Below are positions 10,507-17,022 of a stretch of 45,909 nt of DNA, piece by piece. The stretch is from Anaerolineae bacterium (GTDB taxonomy: Bacteria > Chloroflexota > Anaerolineae > UBA4142 > SHND01): positions 1 to 45,909 of the forward strand of contig JAJTXZ010000034.1 in NCBI GenBank assembly GCA_021463195.1, given 5' to 3'. Position 1 is the stretch's first letter; every line of letters starts with the position of its first letter. A model generated the notes under the pieces. It had not been told where the DNA came from and ran no database searches. It saw only the letters and a list, made by a program, of their open reading frames with translations. Made by a program: the position numbers and the translations under genes.

Positions 10507-10776
10507 ATGAAGCGCGTATTAGTTGTCGTACTGGCGCTGGCGATTCTGTTCACCGTGTTTGCGTCACAGGCGACGCCTGCTAACGCAGGCGGTCCATGGG
10601 GCCCATATCCCGGTTATGTGTTCCAGGGTTCGGGGTACAATCGGGTCTGCATGTATAGCGCATGGAATTGTTCGTATCGCTTTGTGCCGCCGTATCCGGT
10701 ATCGGGCTGGTACTATTATCCGTACAACACGTACTATCGCCCATCGCCGCAGCCGTATTACAATCCGAATTGGTAA
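10507..10776 (+). CDS. Small secreted Tyr/Pro-rich protein
   Basis: An 89-residue protein with a clear Sec signal peptide (MKRVLVVVLALAILFTVF, Ala-rich cleavage region near residue 27). The mature part of about 60 residues is rich in Tyr, Pro, Gly, Trp and Asn (GWYYYPYNTYY) and has two Cys (VCMYSAWNC) that could form a disulfide. The start has an excellent ribosome binding site. It is a single-gene unit with its own promoter, leader hairpin and terminator, which suggests strong expression. I recognise no family; the composition fits a surface, adhesive or matrix protein. Confidence 0.7.
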   Translation: MKRVLVVVLALAILFTVFASQATPANAGGPWGPYPGYVFQGSGYNRVCMYSAWNCSYRFVPPYPVSGWYYYPYNTYYRPSPQPYYNPNW

Positions 10777-11013: not shown

Positions 11014-11042
11014 TTGACAAGCGCTAGAATTCGTGATATAAA
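11014..11042 (+). promoter_or_regulatory. Strong sigma-70-type promoter for the riboswitch RNA
   Basis: A consensus TTGACA (11014-11019), 17-base spacer and TATAAA (11037-11042). Transcription would begin near 11049, about 30 bases before the riboswitch. Confidence 0.8.
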
Positions 11043-11079
11043 AATTCCGCAATAATTGTTACGCAAAATCGCATAGTTC

Positions 11080-11210
11080 TTGTCAGCCAAATCTTCGGGC
11101 GAGCCGGAGAGCGGAGGAACCAACTCTGGGGTGTGTTCTGCCAAGCAGAAGGGACATCTTTCAGTCCTAACCCGACAGCTAACTTCGTAGGCAGTGAAAG
11201 GGACAGGTCT
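11080..11210 (+). promoter_or_regulatory. Cyclic-di-AMP riboswitch (ydaO/yuaA motif)
   Basis: Conserved blocks of the ydaO motif occur in order: GCC closing helix at 11086, CGGAGGAACCAACTC at 11112-11126, GGGGTG at 11128-11133, a variable hairpin (TTCTGCCAAGCAGAA), and the signature CCCGACAGCTAACTTCGTAG at 11171-11190, followed by GGC (11190-11192) closing the helix. This is nearly the same string as in characterised c-di-AMP riboswitches. These are usually off-switches for K+ uptake and wall-remodelling genes. Here the downstream region holds terminators and no recognisable gene before tRNA-Phe. Confidence 0.88.
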
Positions 11211-11218
11211 GTAGCCGT

Positions 11219-11276
11219 GACCACAGATTTGACCTGTGGTCATTTTCGTCGAAAGACAGTATCGCGCGGACGCGAT
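11219..11276 (+). other. Hairpins in the riboswitch expression platform
   Basis: GACCACAG (11219-11226) pairs with CTGTGGTC (11234-11241), and ATCGCG (11261-11266) pairs with CGCGAT (11271-11276). They lie between the aptamer and the terminator at 11290 and may take part in switching. Confidence 0.45.
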
Positions 11277-11289
11277 GCTTGCATTCGTC

Positions 11290-11325
11290 GGGCTGTGACT
11301 TGGACCAGGTCGCAGTCCGTTTTTT
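11290..11325 (+). terminator. Terminator downstream of the c-di-AMP riboswitch
   Basis: GGGCTGTGACT pairs over 11 positions (three G-U) with GGTCGCAGTCC around a seven-base loop, then GTTTTTT. It is the likely ligand-controlled terminator, about 80 bases after the aptamer. Confidence 0.75.
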
Positions 11326-11367
11326 GTGTTCGTTTTTCCTTGACCCTTCTTCTCCTCCTTTTCGAAA

Positions 11368-11467
11368 GGTTATCTCCTTGCATCGGCGTCTGTGTGGGGA
11401 GATAACCGCGCAGTTGGACCACGCGGTGTTTGTTCATCAATGTTGATGGACAACACCGCGTTTTTTT
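11368..11467 (+). ncRNA. Structured, terminated RNA segment behind the riboswitch
   Basis: After the first terminator come a perfect 10-bp stem (GGTTATCTCC at 11368-11377 with GGAGATAACC at 11398-11407, 20-base loop) and then a very strong terminator. I find no start codon with a ribosome binding site and no coding pattern between 11326 and 11467. The read-through product may be a small RNA, or this is the leftover of a deleted gene. Confidence 0.45.
11421..11467 (+). terminator. Strong second terminator of the riboswitch transcript
   Basis: ACGCGGTGTT pairs with AACACCGCGT and the helix continues through TTCATCA/TGATGGA around a short loop, followed by seven T. Confidence 0.85.
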
Positions 11468-11521
11468 CGAGCGCGCGCGCCCAAGCCGCGCGCGTGAAAT
11501 TTCGAGCAAAGAATGATTTGT

Positions 11522-11549
11522 TTGACATTCGCCACAATCCGCATAGAAT
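11522..11549 (+). promoter_or_regulatory. tRNA-Phe promoter
   Basis: TTGACA (11522-11527), 16-base spacer, TAGAAT (11544-11549); the tRNA begins 14 bases later. Confidence 0.75.
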
Positions 11550-11563
11550 AGCATATCGCTGAC

Positions 11564-11636
11564 GCCGAGATAGCTCAGTTGGTAGAGCATGCGGCTGAAA
11601 ACCGCAGTGTCCGCAGTTCGATTCTGCGTCTCGGCA
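11564..11636 (+). tRNA. tRNA-Phe (anticodon GAA)
   Basis: A 73-base cloverleaf: acceptor GCCGAGA with TCTCGGC and discriminator A, D arm with AGCTCAGTTGGTAGAGC, anticodon GAA at 11597-11599, and T arm with GTTCGATTC. The 3' CCA is not encoded. It is transcribed alone, with its own promoter and terminator. Confidence 0.96.
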
Positions 11637-11830: not shown

Positions 11831-12574
11831 ATGGAGGTAGGCAAGTCATTTACGTACATGTTCGAGGACAAGGATTGGATTGCCAAAATCGCGATTGGCG
11901 GTTTGATTACGCTGATCCCTGTTGTCGGCTCGTTAATCGTTCTCGGCTATGTGCTGCGAGTGGTGCGTAATACGCGTGATGATGTAACCCCGATATTGCC
12001 CGAATGGAATGATATTGGCGATATGCTGGTCAAAGGGTTCATGGCGGTCTTGGGTTTGTTAATTTGGTCGCTGCCGGTGATTGCGCTTGCCTGCTGCACC
12101 GGGTTGTTGGTTGCCGCGCTCGGCGGCGCCGGAGCGAATTCGGACGATAACAGCATGGCTGCCCTGGCTGGCTTTGTCGCGCTTTGCATGTATGGTTTAA
12201 TGTTTATCGTCGCGCTTGCCATCAGCTTGTTCGTGTATGCGCCGCTCACGAATTTCGCGTTAAATAACCAAATCGCCACCTTTTGGGATTTTCGCGGCAC
12301 GTGGAAATATATTCAAACGAATCCGGGCAATTATTTCATCGCGTTCTTGCTCGCGCTGGTGGCGAACTTTATCGCCGGTTTTGGTATCATCTTGTGCTTT
12401 ATCGGCGTCATCTTTACGTCTTTTTGGGCGATGCTTGTGATGGGACATTTGTTTGGCCAAGTGGCGCGCGCCAATACGCCGCCCGGCGACCCGACTCTGT
12501 TCCCGCCTGCGCCGCCAATGGATGAGCCGCCGGGCATGATGCAGATTCCGATGGACCCCGCGCCGTCGGCATAG
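11831..12574 (+). CDS. DUF4013 membrane protein
   Basis: A 247-residue multi-pass membrane protein with a very good ribosome binding site (AAAGGAGGAG, 11819-11828). It begins with the family's hallmark N-terminus (SFTYMFEDKDWIAKIAIGG) and has LPEWNDIGDMLVKGF near residue 52, typical of DUF4013. About five hydrophobic segments follow. The last 35 residues are a Pro/Met-rich cytoplasmic or exposed tail. DUF4013 proteins have no proven function. TATAAT at 11740-11745 may be its -10 box. It is followed after 61 bases by the DUF4126 gene. Confidence 0.82.
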   Translation: MEVGKSFTYMFEDKDWIAKIAIGGLITLIPVVGSLIVLGYVLRVVRNTRDDVTPILPEWNDIGDMLVKGFMAVLGLLIWSLPVIALACCTGLLVAALGGAGANSDDNSMAALAGFVALCMYGLMFIVALAISLFVYAPLTNFALNNQIATFWDFRGTWKYIQTNPGNYFIAFLLALVANFIAGFGIILCFIGVIFTSFWAMLVMGHLFGQVARANTPPGDPTLFPPAPPMDEPPGMMQIPMDPAPSA

Positions 12575-12635: not shown

Positions 12636-13247
12636 ATGGGTGGAATCACCGCTATTATTTCCGCGTTTGGACTGTCCGCCGCAAGCGGTTTAAATGCTTA
12701 TATTCCGCTGCTGCTTGTGGGTTTGACCGCGCGCTTTACGGATTGGATTACGCTTGCGGCGCCGTTCGATTTGTTGGCGAATGAATGGGTCCTGGGCGCG
12801 CTGGCGATTTTGCTCGGCATCGAATTTTTTGCCGACAAGATTCCGGTCGTGGACCATGCGAACGACGCGATTCAAACGTTCATTCGCCCCGCTGCCGGCG
12901 CGATTTTGTTTGCGTCCGAAGCGCATGTCATTACTTCGATCCCCCCCGTCGTTGCCTTGATTCTGGGCTTGTTCGTCGCGTTCGGAGTGCATGCGACGAA
13001 AGCGACGGCGCGTCCGCTTGTGACGGTGGCGACCGGCGGCGTTGGCAATCCTGTTGTAAGCGCAGCGGAAGATGTCGCGTCGGTTGGCATGACAATCATG
13101 GCGCTGCTGGCGCCGATCTTGCTGCTGCTCTCGTTTATCGCGCTCTTGTTGGCGGGATTTATGATTTGGACGCGCAAGCGTAAAAAGGCGGTGGCAGTCT
13201 CGACAACGAATTCGGCTTCGAGTCAACCGCTGGATTGGCCCCAGTAA
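12636..13247 (+). CDS. DUF4126 membrane protein
   Basis: A 203-residue protein with a signature of the DUF4126 family: an N-terminal ASGLNAYIPLL segment, FADKIPVVDHANDAIQTFIRP in the middle (residues about 67-87), and a Gly-rich loop (VATGGVGNPVVSAAEDV). Four or five hydrophobic segments are visible, with a basic, Ser-rich C-terminal tail. The family function is unproven. GAGAGG upstream of ATG serves as ribosome binding site. It is probably co-transcribed with the DUF4013 gene and ends at a strong terminator. Confidence 0.82.
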   Translation: MGGITAIISAFGLSAASGLNAYIPLLLVGLTARFTDWITLAAPFDLLANEWVLGALAILLGIEFFADKIPVVDHANDAIQTFIRPAAGAILFASEAHVITSIPPVVALILGLFVAFGVHATKATARPLVTVATGGVGNPVVSAAEDVASVGMTIMALLAPILLLLSFIALLLAGFMIWTRKRKKAVAVSTTNSASSQPLDWPQ

Positions 13248-13260
13248 TCGCATAAAACAT

Positions 13261-13292
13261 GACGCGCGTCCCAAAGGACGCGCGTCTTTTTT
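13261..13292 (+). terminator. Intrinsic terminator after DUF4126
   Basis: A perfect 11-bp stem (GACGCGCGTCC with GGACGCGCGTC), four-base loop and six T. Confidence 0.92.
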
Positions 13293-13308
13293 GTATCCCC
13301 CAAACCTC

Positions 13309-13337
13309 TTTTCATCACGCGCGCGCTATGCTACAAT
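13309..13337 (+). promoter_or_regulatory. Promoter of the cyclase fusion gene, likely leaderless
   Basis: TTTTCA (13309-13314), 17-base spacer, TACAAT (13332-13337). The ATG at 13345 is only seven bases after the -10 box, and no ribosome binding site is present. Confidence 0.5.
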
Positions 13338-13344
13338 TTCACGC

Positions 13345-13524
13345 ATGGACGACGCTGCAGAAAACTCGGACGAACGACGTCCGGTCACCATTTTATTCAC
13401 CGATATTGTCGGTTCGACCGCGCACGCGGAAAAACTCGACGCCGAAGAATGGAAAGAAATCGTCAATGGCGCGCATCGCCGCGTGAGCGAGGCGGTGACG
13501 CGTTACGAAGGCACCGTCGCGTAA
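13345..13524 (+). pseudogene. N-terminal fragment of the cyclase fusion, ended by an internal stop
   Basis: 59 codons starting at ATG 13345 encode the first part of a class III nucleotide cyclase (PVTILFTDIVGSTAHAEKLD), including the first metal-binding Asp of FTDIVGST. The frame stops at TAA 13522-13524, where homologues usually have Gln (VAQLLGDG, here VA-stop-LLGDG). A single C-to-T change from CAA explains it. The following frame continues without a break at 13528. It is a recent nonsense mutation, a sequencing error, or a read-through site. Confidence 0.7.
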
Positions 13525-13527
13525 CTT

Positions 13528-16500
13528 TTGGGCGATGGCGTTCTCGCGTTCTTTGGCGCGCCCCATTCGCACGAAGACGACCCCGCGCGGGCAGTGCGCG
13601 CTGGCTTGGAAATTCAACGCGCGATGTCAGAATACGCGAACGAGTTGCGCGGCTATGTGGAAAATTTTCAAATGCGTGTTGGCATCAATACAGGCGATGT
13701 TGTCGTCGGCGCGGTGGGCAGCGCGGAACATTCCGAGTATCTCGCCGTCGGTGATGCGGTGAATCTCGCCGCGCGTTTGCAGAGCGCGGCGCAACCGGGC
13801 GCCGTTTTGATTTCCGAAAATACAGCGCGTCTCGTGCAAGCATTTTTCGATTTGCGCGACATGGGCGAAATCTCCGTCAAGGGCAAAACGGAATCGCTTC
13901 GTGTGTTTGAGGTGATTCAAGAACGCGCGGGCTTTGCGGGCGGACGCGGCATCGCGGGTTTGAGTTCGCCGCTTGTCGGACGCGAACGCGAGTTGAATGA
14001 ATTGAACGCCGCGTTGAACGATTTGCGCGCGGGACAGGGCCAAATTGTTTTCGTGTTGGGCGAGGCGGGGATTGGGAAAACGCGGTTGGTGGAAGAAGCG
14101 CGGGCGCGGGTAGAAACGGAACCGGGTTCCGTTTCTACCCGCTTTCTCGAAGGTCGCGCGCTTTCGTACGGGCAATCGCTTCCGTTCTGGACAATCACGC
14201 AACTCTTGCAAAATGATTTGGGCATTGTGGACGGCGAACATGAAATCAAAATTCGCGTTGCGCTAAAAAAGCGCGTGCAAGAATTGTTTGCAAAAAAATC
14301 GGATGAGGTGTTTCCGTATCTCGCGCATTTGCTCGGCGTGAAATTAGAGGGCGAACAAGCGGAACGCGTAAAAATTCTCGACGGCGAAACGCTCAAGCGT
14401 CAAGCGTTGCTTTCGATTGCGGAATATTTCTTGAAACTCGCGCAGCGGCAGCCGACCGTTTTGGTGTTGGAAGATTTGCATTGGGCAGACCCGTCGTCAC
14501 TCGACGCGCTGGAGCGACTCTTGCGCGTCACCGAACGCGCGCCGTTGATGCTCATCGCCTTGATGCGCGCGGAAACGGACAAACCCGCGTGGCGCATCCG
14601 CGACCTTGCCGCGCGCGAATATCGGCGGCGTTTTCACGAGCTTGAATTGGAACCATTGGCGGCGAATGAGGCGAATGCGCTCGTGGATAATTTGCTCGCC
14701 CTTGCGGATTTGCCCGACGCGCTGCGGCAAATGATTCTCGCACGCGCCGAAGGCAACCCATTGTTTTTGGAAGAAATTTTGCGCGCGGTGATTGACCAAG
14801 GCACACTCGCCCGCGACGAACATAATCGCTGGCATGCCCAGTCTTTAGTCTCTAGTCTCCACATCCCCGACACCCTCCAAGCTCTCCTCCTCGCGCGCAT
14901 TGATCGTTTGGAAGAGGATGTGAAACGGACGCTGCAACTCGCGTCGGTGATTGGGCGCAGTTTTTTATTCAAATTGCTTGAAGCGATTTCGGATGCGGAG
15001 CGCGAAGTGGATTGGCATCTCGCGCAATTGGAACGCGCCGATTTGGTGCATGAGAAAACGCGTCTGCCCGAACTCGAATACATGTTCAAACATTCGCTTA
15101 CGCAGGAAGCCGCTTACGCATCGCTCGTGCGCGAACGCCGCCAAGAATTTCACCGCCGCGTGGCGAACGCATTGGAAAAAATTTTTGCGGAACGTCAAAA
15201 TGAATTTCTCGGCTTGTTCGCCTATCATTTTGACCGCGCGGGGGAAAAGGAAAAAGCGATTAATTATTTGATTCGCGCGGGCGACAAGACGCGCTTGAGC
15301 GACGCGCATGAAGAGGCGATTGCGCTTTATGAACGCGCGATAGAGTTATTACGCGAAAGCGGAGATGCGGAGCGCAAGGCAAAGACGTGGCTCAAGTTGG
15401 GACTGATTTATCACGCGAATTTCGAATTTGATAAAGCGCACGAGGCGAATGAAAAAGCGTTCGCACTTGAACAAAAAGCGCTCCCGCAAGCACAGCGCAC
15501 GCCGAGTATAAAGAGGGAGGGTGATAATTCGCTACGCGTTTTTCGTTTTAGCGCAGGCCGATACACCACGCTCGATCCAGCATTTCCGTTGTTTACTTGG
15601 GAGACGGACGTTATTCTTGCGCTCTTTGCGGGCTTGGCAGAAATGGACGCGGAATTGAACGTCGTGCCTCATGCCGCGCGTTCCTGGGAGGTTCTGGATG
15701 GCGGAAGGCGTTATGTATTCTATCTGCGCGAGGATGTGTCTTGGACGAACGGGACGCGCGTGACGGCAGAAGATTTTGAATGGGCTTGGAAGCGCAATCT
15801 CGCGCCTTTTACCCATTCCAGCAGTGCGGAACTTTTGGACGAGATTGAGGGCGCGCGGGATTTTCGCGAGGGACGCAATAGTGATCCGAGCGCGGTCGGA
15901 GTGCGCGCGCTCGACGCATTGACTCTGGAGGTGCGACTGGTAAAACCCATTGCTTATTTCCCCTACCTGCTCACACAACCGGTCACTTTTCCGCTGCCGC
16001 GCGCGGTGATCGAAAAATATGGTGATGAATGGTGGAAACCGGAACATGTTGTATCTAATGGCGCGTTCCGCTTGGCGACATTTGAACCCAAACAGATTGT
16101 CCTCGAACGGAATCCAACATATTTTGGCGAGTTCTCTGGCAACCTTGATCGCATCGAAACATGGTATACGGCGGATTCTGGGGAGCAACTGCAACAATAT
16201 GCGCAAGATCGGATTGATATGTGCGTTGTCCCTCAACGCGATATACTGCCGAACTTTGCAGAATTTGTGAGCCAAAAAGAACAGTCCCCTGTCTCCGGTC
16301 TGGGTGGCGAGTTTCTGCTGCTCCTTCCACGTCCACCTCTCGACGATGTGCGCGTGCGCTGCGCGCTAATTCATGCCCTCGATCGCGAGCGCGTGAGCCA
16401 AGTATGGCACGGCGCCGCATTGCCCGCCGCGCGCGGCGGAATCGTTCCGCCGGGGATAGCGGGACACTCGCCCGAAATCGGTTTGACCTTTGATCTCGAC

Positions 16501-17022
16501 CTTGCCCAAATGCTGCTGGCAGAAGCGGGTTATCCCAATGGGCAGAGTTTGCCCCCATTGATTCTAGGCGCTTTTTTCGATGTAGATTTTGACACATTAA
16601 ACGAGATCGCGCGTCAATGGCGTGAGCATCTTGGGATTGAGGTCTCTGTTCAAATCGCCAACTTAGGCGCCCCAGAACTCTACGCACAAATTCGTATGAA
16701 TGGATGGGCTGCCGATTACTCTGACCCTGATACCTTTTTAAGAAATATGCCGGAGTATTGGTCGCTCCGTCGCGCGGGCTGGCAGAATCAACGCTATGCT
16801 GATTTGGTCGAGACCGCCGCCTCAACCCCCAATCGAACCGAACGCATGGCGCTGTATCGGGAAGCGGACCGCCTCTGGGTTGCCGAGGACGCGGTGATTT
16901 GTCCGTTGGTCTATTTCGATAAAGTTACGGAAGTTCGCTTGATCAAACCGTGGGTCAAGCATTGGAGGTCGAATCGCATGGGTAATGTGTTGTATAAACA
17001 TGTGAGGGTCGAGCCGCATTGA
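13528..17022 (+). CDS. Cyclase / AAA ATPase / TPR / peptide-binding protein (SBP family 5) fusion
   Basis: 1164 residues in the same frame as the fragment at 13345. Residues 1-135 are the rest of a class III cyclase, with the second metal Asp (GDGVLAFFGAP) and VGDAVNLAARL with the Asn/Arg pair. A STAND/AAA ATPase follows: GRERELNEL near 150, Walker A GEAGIGKTR near 178, Walker B VLVLEDLHWAD near 312. TPR-like helices cover about 575-660. From about 668 to the end is a family 5 (OppA/DppA-like) solute-binding fold. No signal peptide or membrane segment precedes it, so it should be cytoplasmic, as in SgrR-type sensors. Separate translation from 13528, or from ATG 13624, would lack the first catalytic Asp. 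The ATPase carries a 37-bp palindrome and a heptamer array, both in frame. Confidence 0.8.
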   Translation: MGDGVLAFFGAPHSHEDDPARAVRAGLEIQRAMSEYANELRGYVENFQMRVGINTGDVVVGAVGSAEHSEYLAVGDAVNLAARLQSAAQPGAVLISENTARLVQAFFDLRDMGEISVKGKTESLRVFEVIQERAGFAGGRGIAGLSSPLVGRERELNELNAALNDLRAGQGQIVFVLGEAGIGKTRLVEEARARVETEPGSVSTRFLEGRALSYGQSLPFWTITQLLQNDLGIVDGEHEIKIRVALKKRVQELFAKKSDEVFPYLAHLLGVKLEGEQAERVKILDGETLKRQALLSIAEYFLKLAQRQPTVLVLEDLHWADPSSLDALERLLRVTERAPLMLIALMRAETDKPAWRIRDLAAREYRRRFHELELEPLAANEANALVDNLLALADLPDALRQMILARAEGNPLFLEEILRAVIDQGTLARDEHNRWHAQSLVSSLHIPDTLQALLLARIDRLEEDVKRTLQLASVIGRSFLFKLLEAISDAEREVDWHLAQLERADLVHEKTRLPELEYMFKHSLTQEAAYASLVRERRQEFHRRVANALEKIFAERQNEFLGLFAYHFDRAGEKEKAINYLIRAGDKTRLSDAHEEAIALYERAIELLRESGDAERKAKTWLKLGLIYHANFEFDKAHEANEKAFALEQKALPQAQRTPSIKREGDNSLRVFRFSAGRYTTLDPAFPLFTWETDVILALFAGLAEMDAELNVVPHAARSWEVLDGGRRYVFYLREDVSWTNGTRVTAEDFEWAWKRNLAPFTHSSSAELLDEIEGARDFREGRNSDPSAVGVRALDALTLEVRLVKPIAYFPYLLTQPVTFPLPRAVIEKYGDEWWKPEHVVSNGAFRLATFEPKQIVLERNPTYFGEFSGNLDRIETWYTADSGEQLQQYAQDRIDMCVVPQRDILPNFAEFVSQKEQSPVSGLGGEFLLLLPRPPLDDVRVRCALIHALDRERVSQVWHGAALPAARGGIVPPGIAGHSPEIGLTFDLDLAQMLLAEAGYPNGQSLPPLILGAFFDVDFDTLNEIARQWREHLGIEVSVQIANLGAPELYAQIRMNGWAADYSDPDTFLRNMPEYWSLRRAGWQNQRYADLVETAASTPNRTERMALYREADRLWVAEDAVICPLVYFDKVTEVRLIKPWVKHWRSNRMGNVLYKHVRVEPH
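14106..14142. repeat. 37-bp palindrome inside the ATPase domain
   Basis: Perfect 18-bp arms (GCGGGTAGAAACGGAACC and its complement) around a single G. It encodes RVETEPGSVST, an extra loop about 15 residues after Walker A. It differs in length and sequence from the 34-bp family but has the same character: a palindrome tolerated in a coding frame. Confidence 0.8.
14840..14860. repeat. Heptamer array inside the ATPase gene
   Basis: Three 7-bp units, AGTCTTT AGTCTCT AGTCTCC. The 21 bases equal seven codons, so the frame is kept (SLVSSLH in the protein). Related units lie before typA and inside uvrC. Confidence 0.75.

Follow-up and report, generated by a model that had tools for sequence, protein, structure and literature searches.

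In the window analysed here (the whole 45,909-nucleotide stretch of DNA from an Anaerolineae bacterium), a full-length c-di-AMP riboswitch aptamer is followed not by a gene but by a conserved small RNA (sRNA) at 11346-11467, which comprises an anti-Shine-Dalgarno tract, a covarying hairpin and a strong terminator. On the sequence evidence, we consider it probable that an OFF-type riboswitch, acting through transcription termination, controls this RNA, which in turn would act in trans to repress ABC-transporter substrate-binding lipoproteins. What the sequence itself shows is the aptamer with its terminators, an RNA that is conserved and covaries, the retention of that RNA's place behind the riboswitch, and an excess of complementary ribosome-binding sites among substrate-binding-protein genes.

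We infer the polarity, the read-through or processing, the pairing in vivo and the repression along the following lines. When c-di-AMP is bound, the outer helix P1 of the aptamer would be stabilised and its 3' flank unavailable for an antiterminator, and transcription would end at the terminator or terminators between 11218 and 11325. With little c-di-AMP, the polymerase would continue to 11467, giving a read-through RNA in which the anti-Shine-Dalgarno tract is mostly single-stranded and two stable stem-loops come after it. The sRNA, probably trimmed from its leader, would then pair with AAAGGAGGAGAAG-type ribosome-binding sites on substrate-binding-lipoprotein mRNAs and block their translation.

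Layout of the locus

The features of the locus are as follows.

11014-11042 (+): sigma-70-type promoter of the riboswitch transcript, TTGACA-N17-TATAAA, read in the sequence
11075-11208 (+): c-di-AMP (ydaO/yuaA) riboswitch aptamer, Rfam RF00379 match
11199-11214 (+): putative 5' strand of an antiterminator, sharing bases with the 3' flank of P1, the outer aptamer helix, from duplex prediction
11218-11242 (+): original riboswitch terminator hairpin, GACCACAG...CTGTGGTC, from folding; its U-run is weak in this genome
11289-11325 (+): second intrinsic terminator, from a scan (hairpin 11289-11319 and U6)
11346-11365 (+): anti-Shine-Dalgarno tract CUUCUUCUCCUCCUUUUCGA, predicted sRNA seed; an invariant block, scored by covariance model R2 at 53.5 bits
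11368-11407 (+): sRNA stem-loop of 18 bp with a conserved apical GGCGU, from covariation
11422-11467 (+): strong intrinsic terminator of the sRNA, ~18 bp and U7, from folding (hairpin 11422-11460, then U7)
11522-11549 (+): near-perfect promoter of tRNA-Phe itself, from a promoter scan; outside the system, whose 3' limit it sets
11564-11636 (+): tRNA-Phe(GAA), found next to the sRNA throughout the genus and in half of the sister family; outside the system

The aptamer matches RF00379 on the forward strand with 77.2 bits (E 2.5e-16, gathering score 38, model positions 1-134 of 134). It is the only match to this family in the 4.7-Mb draft genome and is kept in all genus members, where a similar promoter also lies on its 5' side. 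The region is present as a single copy in the genome, by which a repeat element is rejected. Four main hairpins follow the aptamer (11218-11242, 11289-11325, 11368-11407 and 11422-11467). An earlier sequence-only reading had recognised the consensus promoter, a textbook ydaO aptamer, a G-U-rich terminator at 11290-11325, a hairpin and a very strong second terminator at 11421-11467, and no coding region before the tRNA-Phe promoter; all of these hold, and its list of terminators lacked the hairpin at 11218-11242, which was found by folding.

The stretch from the aptamer to the tRNA-Phe promoter contains no credible ORF. Short frames between the switch and the tRNA have no ribosome-binding site and are not conserved in relatives, and a candidate antisense gene on the minus strand, using AAAAGGAGGAG, was rejected when its frame past AAAAGGAGGAG proved to be lost in relatives. 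Control of a downstream protein-coding gene, a usual trait of RF00379 riboswitches although not one that strictly defines the aptamer family, is thus replaced here by a conserved RNA in the place of an ORF.

A conserved and covarying RNA behind the riboswitch

The order of aptamer, terminator, tract and hairpin is kept in 19 loci, namely in all six genus genomes, in every one of the ten sister-family genomes that carry the riboswitch, and at three loci further afield (L003, L005 and L040), where the tract is present and the hairpin is of unrelated sequence. In each of the six genus members the aptamer is followed by a CCACAG...CTGTGG hairpin, the pyrimidine tract CTTCTTCTCCTCCTTTTCGA, the hairpin, the second terminator and tRNA-Phe; the sister family shares this order through the hairpin after the tract (10/10), with tRNA-Phe next in five. 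The other aptamer loci examined in the class have no tract, and where the sequence could be read, almost every one of them carries an ordinary gene that has a ribosome-binding site. When one genome from each of 84,980 species was searched for a composite pattern (aptamer 3' end, 69-99 bases, TCTCCTCCTT), 13 contigs matched, all in the Chloroflexota. A separate pattern search that allowed up to two mismatches gave a sizeable background with the pattern reversed as control, and serves as a lead only.

Over its first 19 bases the tract does not vary among the genus and sister-family sequences (16 of 16), which share an invariant UCUCCUCCUUU tract. In the same 16 sequences, the stem-loop at 11368-11407 has double compensatory changes at 13 of its 18 pairs, and 92% of the stem-loop cells pair, compared with 46-57% after the partners were shifted by as many as three columns. 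Class-wide, the alignment fitted to the covariance model gives 12 of 12 covarying pairs. Because MAFFT alignments mis-registered the stem, this model was started from a single family and then remade with the matches it had found, and the class-wide pair counts therefore lean towards structure, a bias from which the 13/18 count is free. The fold of 11326-11470 is far more stable than its shuffles (z = -5.3), and relatives have a terminator-like hairpin at the position of the sRNA terminator (11422-11467).

As in sRNAs of the AbcR/NfeR1 type, the invariant anti-Shine-Dalgarno motif is predominantly single-stranded, with a mean unpaired probability of 0.71 in the sRNA alone; the value in the full leader is 0.49, so that only about half of the tract is predicted to be unpaired there, which counts against the proposed mechanism. 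When the RNA at 11326-11467 and its relatives were compared with Rfam, only RF00379 and tRNA attained the gathering score, and a relaxed threshold gave chance-level matches only.

The sequence-only reading had offered two interpretations of the gene-less leader. The first, loss of the regulated gene, finds no support: the tract and hairpin are conserved, and since the gene-less arrangement itself is conserved in relatives, the product is better taken to be an RNA than a missing protein. Neither a conserved short reading frame nor an intact gene behind the same leader type was found when relatives were searched for them. The second, c-di-AMP control of a small RNA, is strongly supported at the level of sequence because 11346-11407 is conserved with covariation across the class and is gene-less in the relatives read.

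In the sister family, a second hairpin lies ~70-130 bases after the tract (L010-L020), with the conserved sequence GATGCGCCGCTT...TCAGCGCGGATCA...AAGCGGCGC and an odd internal repeat. In two of these loci (L011 and L012), the next gene 3' of the sRNA is not tRNA-Phe but an ORF assigned by eye as caspase-like (MARKALCVGINHFKNYPNNGLNGCVNDVNDM...).

Distribution in the Anaerolineae

A search of genomes of the class Anaerolineae (Chloroflexota) with the covariance model of tract and hairpin, against which the window copy scores 53.5 bits, detected the RNA in 267 of 396 at E<=1e-3, and in about 228 at E<1e-6. Away from the riboswitch, the sRNA occurs as a stand-alone gene elsewhere in the class. 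In family f16, for example, the stand-alone RNA is ~70 nt long, and its tract is flanked by a 5' stem-loop (AGAGAUGGCAAUCUCU) and a GC-rich 3' stem-loop. The promoters of 33 of 38 stand-alone loci carry CGTAGGG-type boxes with an exact 11-bp period upstream of a TATACT-like -10 element, and such boxes also occur at most of another 20 loci, which come from many other families and were detected by the model alone. The boxes lie ~50-120 bases 5' of the tract (L345-L364, L108-L136), outside the covariance model, and so validate it independently.

An 11-bp period resembles the sites of OmpR/PhoB-type response regulators, which would be candidate binders of these boxes. The riboswitch loci have no CGTAGGG-type boxes, and since the stand-alone genes elsewhere in the class do, the riboswitch lineages appear to have a different input. 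In families f3, f14 and f8 (L123, L124, L125, L127 and L234), a long stem-loop lies between promoter and tract (GGCATGGTTCTT...AGGAACCATGCC in f3), possibly a further kind of control of the same sRNA.

Predicted targets

The complement of the tract, AAAAGGAGGAGAAGAAG, is an extended Shine-Dalgarno sequence, and potential targets were sought by pattern searches. The window's own genome contains 30 AAAGGAGG-N4-12-ATG sites, three of which continue with AGAA; all three precede ABC-transporter substrate-binding lipoproteins, as do none of the other 27, and two further sites with one mismatch precede sugar-binding proteins. Predicted duplexes with these five substrate-binding-protein leaders are the strongest and range from -22.0 to -28.8 kcal/mol, compared with -20.5 kcal/mol or weaker for all 27 others. 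Over 20 genomes of the window's order, AAGGAGGAGAAG-N0-8-ATG leaders precede 47 usable ORFs. Lipoproteins account for 42 of these 47 and for none of 22 control genes with an equally strong Shine-Dalgarno core and another extension (p = 1.4e-13). By Pfam family the 47 include SBP_bac_1 (15), Peripla_BP_6 (7), SBP_bac_5 (6), Peripla_BP_4 (3), SBP_bac_3 (3), Bmp (2), Phosphonate-bd (2) and OpuAC (1), with no substrate-binding family among the 22 controls; about eight such families being represented, shared ancestry of one gene family does not explain the result. In 20 genomes in which the sRNA was not detected there are nine such sites in total, about four of them on binding-protein genes.

The extended complementarity is thus concentrated on the ribosome-binding sites of substrate-binding proteins, and more weakly so outside the window's order. 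Where the sequence-only reading had imagined an RNA acting in trans on envelope genes, naming the TRIC-like, L,D-transpeptidase and GH73 genes of the window, that idea is refined rather than confirmed, with extended complementarity to substrate-binding-lipoprotein genes elsewhere in the genome and not to those named.

Several observations count against this target assignment. Exact AAGGAGGAGAAG sites, as a 12-mer, are rare and unenriched in most sRNA-bearing families outside the window's order, where only f12, and G030 with its variant tract, look similar; the target rule is accordingly supported mainly in the window's order and f12. Such sites on substrate-binding-protein genes also occur in two genomes in which the sRNA was not detected (G008, from the sister family, and G028), perhaps because the drafts are incomplete or the sRNA was lost in filtering. 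A highly expressed substrate-binding-protein gene could also acquire a very strong ribosome-binding site with no sRNA involved.

These points bear on an alternative that we regard as unlikely yet deserving of weight, namely that the RNA is real and controlled by c-di-AMP but acts mainly by some means other than blocking translation of substrate-binding proteins, for example by binding a protein via its pyrimidine tract, by mimicking the ribosome or by binding Shine-Dalgarno sequences in general. The tract does resemble the anti-Shine-Dalgarno sequence of rRNA, which is CCUCCUUU, and its conservation is stricter than pairing with mRNAs alone may need; the rarity of exact complementary sites beyond the window's order points the same way. 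Against it stand the concentration of extended complementarity, within that order, on substrate-binding-protein genes of unrelated families and the case of G030, whose tract differs (CCGTTTTCTCCTCCTTTTGG; CCGTTTTCTCC...): four of its five AAGGAGGAGA genes encode binding proteins, and two of the sites continue with AAAACC or AAACG, matching the changed tract.

Expression platform and proposed coupling to the riboswitch

The hairpin at 11218-11242, directly 3' of the aptamer, is by comparison with relatives the original riboswitch terminator, as most relatives have a counterpart with U5-U7. The second terminator (11289-11325 in the window) is present in five of six genus members and missing from L021. 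In the window and in L023, both of which have this extra terminator, the U-run of the first hairpin is weak or lost, as if its role had moved to the extra terminator. An antiterminator that would exclude the terminator is predicted to draw on the P1 3' flank, which reads GGGACAGGUCUGU in the window and AAGGGGACAAGUCUGUGG in the sister family, and duplex predictions give this pairing in most relatives. From this predicted use of the P1 flank, and by analogy with known ydaO switches, the ligand-bound RNA should terminate.

The extra terminator that separates the switch from the sRNA in five of the six genus members, the window included, counts against control by read-through and is what one would expect if the sRNA came from its own promoter or from processing, independently of c-di-AMP, with the riboswitch only a terminated leader and its proximity incidental. 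The stand-alone copies elsewhere, which have their own promoters, would fit such an origin as well. We nonetheless consider it improbable, as a scan found no sigma-70-like promoter between 11050 and 11346, the periodic boxes of the stand-alone promoters are lacking at the riboswitch loci, and the arrangement has been kept in 19 loci.

Neighbouring genes

That the riboswitch instead regulates transcription of the downstream tRNA-Phe in cis is very improbable: the tRNA is next in 6/6 genus members and about half of the sister family, but it has its own near-perfect promoter behind a strong terminator, and the RNA is kept at loci without tRNA-Phe close behind (L010, L011, L012, L014, L022, L003, L005 and L040). 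An orphaned leader, decaying after loss of its regulated gene, is hardly credible despite the lack of an ORF before the tRNA and the weakened U-run of the first hairpin in this genome, because among the 16 sequences from genus and sister family the hairpin covaries and the tract's first 19 bases never change, and because the relatives that share this leader type all lack a gene at that position.

Upstream of the locus, 10507-10776 (+) encodes a predicted secreted protein of 89 residues, rich in Tyr and Pro and with no Pfam match, which is conserved beside the riboswitch in the genus and also lies upstream in L016, L021 and L024. On the 3' side of tRNA-Phe are genes for DUF4013 and DUF4126 membrane proteins (11831-12574 and 12636-13247, both +); the ribosome-binding site of the DUF4013 gene, AAAGGAGGAGTT, is a partial complement of the sRNA tract (-20.5 kcal/mol). 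One long frame follows at 13291-17022 (+), with domains of a class III nucleotide cyclase and an AAA ATPase, TPRs, and a solute-binding SBP_bac_5 domain that is complete; the cyclase domain is cut off from its N-terminal part by a stop codon in frame (13522-13524), reflecting a broken gene or an assembly error.

Relation to known systems

The locus shares with ydaO/yuaA riboswitches (RF00379) the platform of aptamer and transcription terminator, and differs in that an RNA, rather than an adjacent protein-coding gene, would be controlled. In enterobacteria, the sRNA GcvB likewise acts on several ABC-transporter binding-protein mRNAs, but it has a G/U-rich seed and protein regulators. The nearest mechanisms are those of EutX and Rli55, of AbcR1/2 and NfeR1, and of the streptococcal csRNAs, and none of them unites the features described here.

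EutX of Enterococcus faecalis and Rli55 of Listeria are trans-acting RNAs controlled by B12 riboswitches (PMC7602753). There, the ligand-bound riboswitch terminates and prevents synthesis of a downstream gene-less, trans-acting RNA; the present locus likewise places a riboswitch terminator ahead of a non-coding RNA that has a terminator of its own, but whereas EutX and Rli55 sequester EutV through an ANTAR site (PMC7602753), the ligand class here is c-di-AMP and the RNA is predicted to be a base-pairing anti-Shine-Dalgarno sRNA. AbcR1, AbcR2 and NfeR1 are anti-Shine-Dalgarno sRNAs of alpha-rhizobia, NfeR1 being needed for osmoadaptation, and they resemble the Anaerolineae RNA in their single-stranded anti-Shine-Dalgarno motifs and in their targets, mRNAs of periplasmic ABC-transporter substrate-binding proteins (PMC8844928). 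They belong to another phylum, differ in sequence and architecture and have no riboswitch.

The csRNAs of Streptococcus, members of the CiaR regulon, are short RNAs with an unpaired anti-Shine-Dalgarno segment beside stem-loops, and a response regulator binds a direct repeat in their promoters (PMC3091779). The stand-alone Anaerolineae copies are like them in layout. The repeats differ, however (TTTAAG-N5-TTTAAG in csRNA promoters, CGTAGGG-type boxes with an 11-bp period in the Anaerolineae). Unlike csRNAs, the Anaerolineae tract has no CAU anti-start motif, its predicted targets are different, and csRNAs are not under a riboswitch. In searches of an open-access library we found no report of a sRNA, or of any trans-acting base-pairing RNA, controlled by a c-di-AMP riboswitch; on that basis the RNA would represent a new sRNA family under a riboswitch class unreported as controlling one.

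Implications

c-di-AMP is tied to potassium and osmotic balance (PMC7266159), which makes a link to solute import plausible. On balance, though with less assurance than for the locus itself, we favour a broader reading of these sequence comparisons, in which a class-wide and previously undescribed anti-Shine-Dalgarno sRNA of the Anaerolineae dampens the binding proteins of nutrient uptake and, in the order to which the window belongs, a c-di-AMP riboswitch has taken over its control from a promoter bearing response-regulator-type repeats, such that c-di-AMP would control solute import in trans. One sRNA with two quite different inputs, compared between lineages, would offer a case for studying signal change in regulatory RNAs, and the parallel with AbcR and NfeR1 in alpha-rhizobia would be one of convergent evolution on the same target class. 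The Chloroflexota, a major and mostly uncultured phylum, would gain a sRNA that is spread across a whole class and whose target rule can be tested directly. If the proposed mechanism is true, c-di-AMP control extends from single adjacent genes to a whole class of importers, suggesting a previously unreported way for bacteria to couple c-di-AMP to nutrient import.
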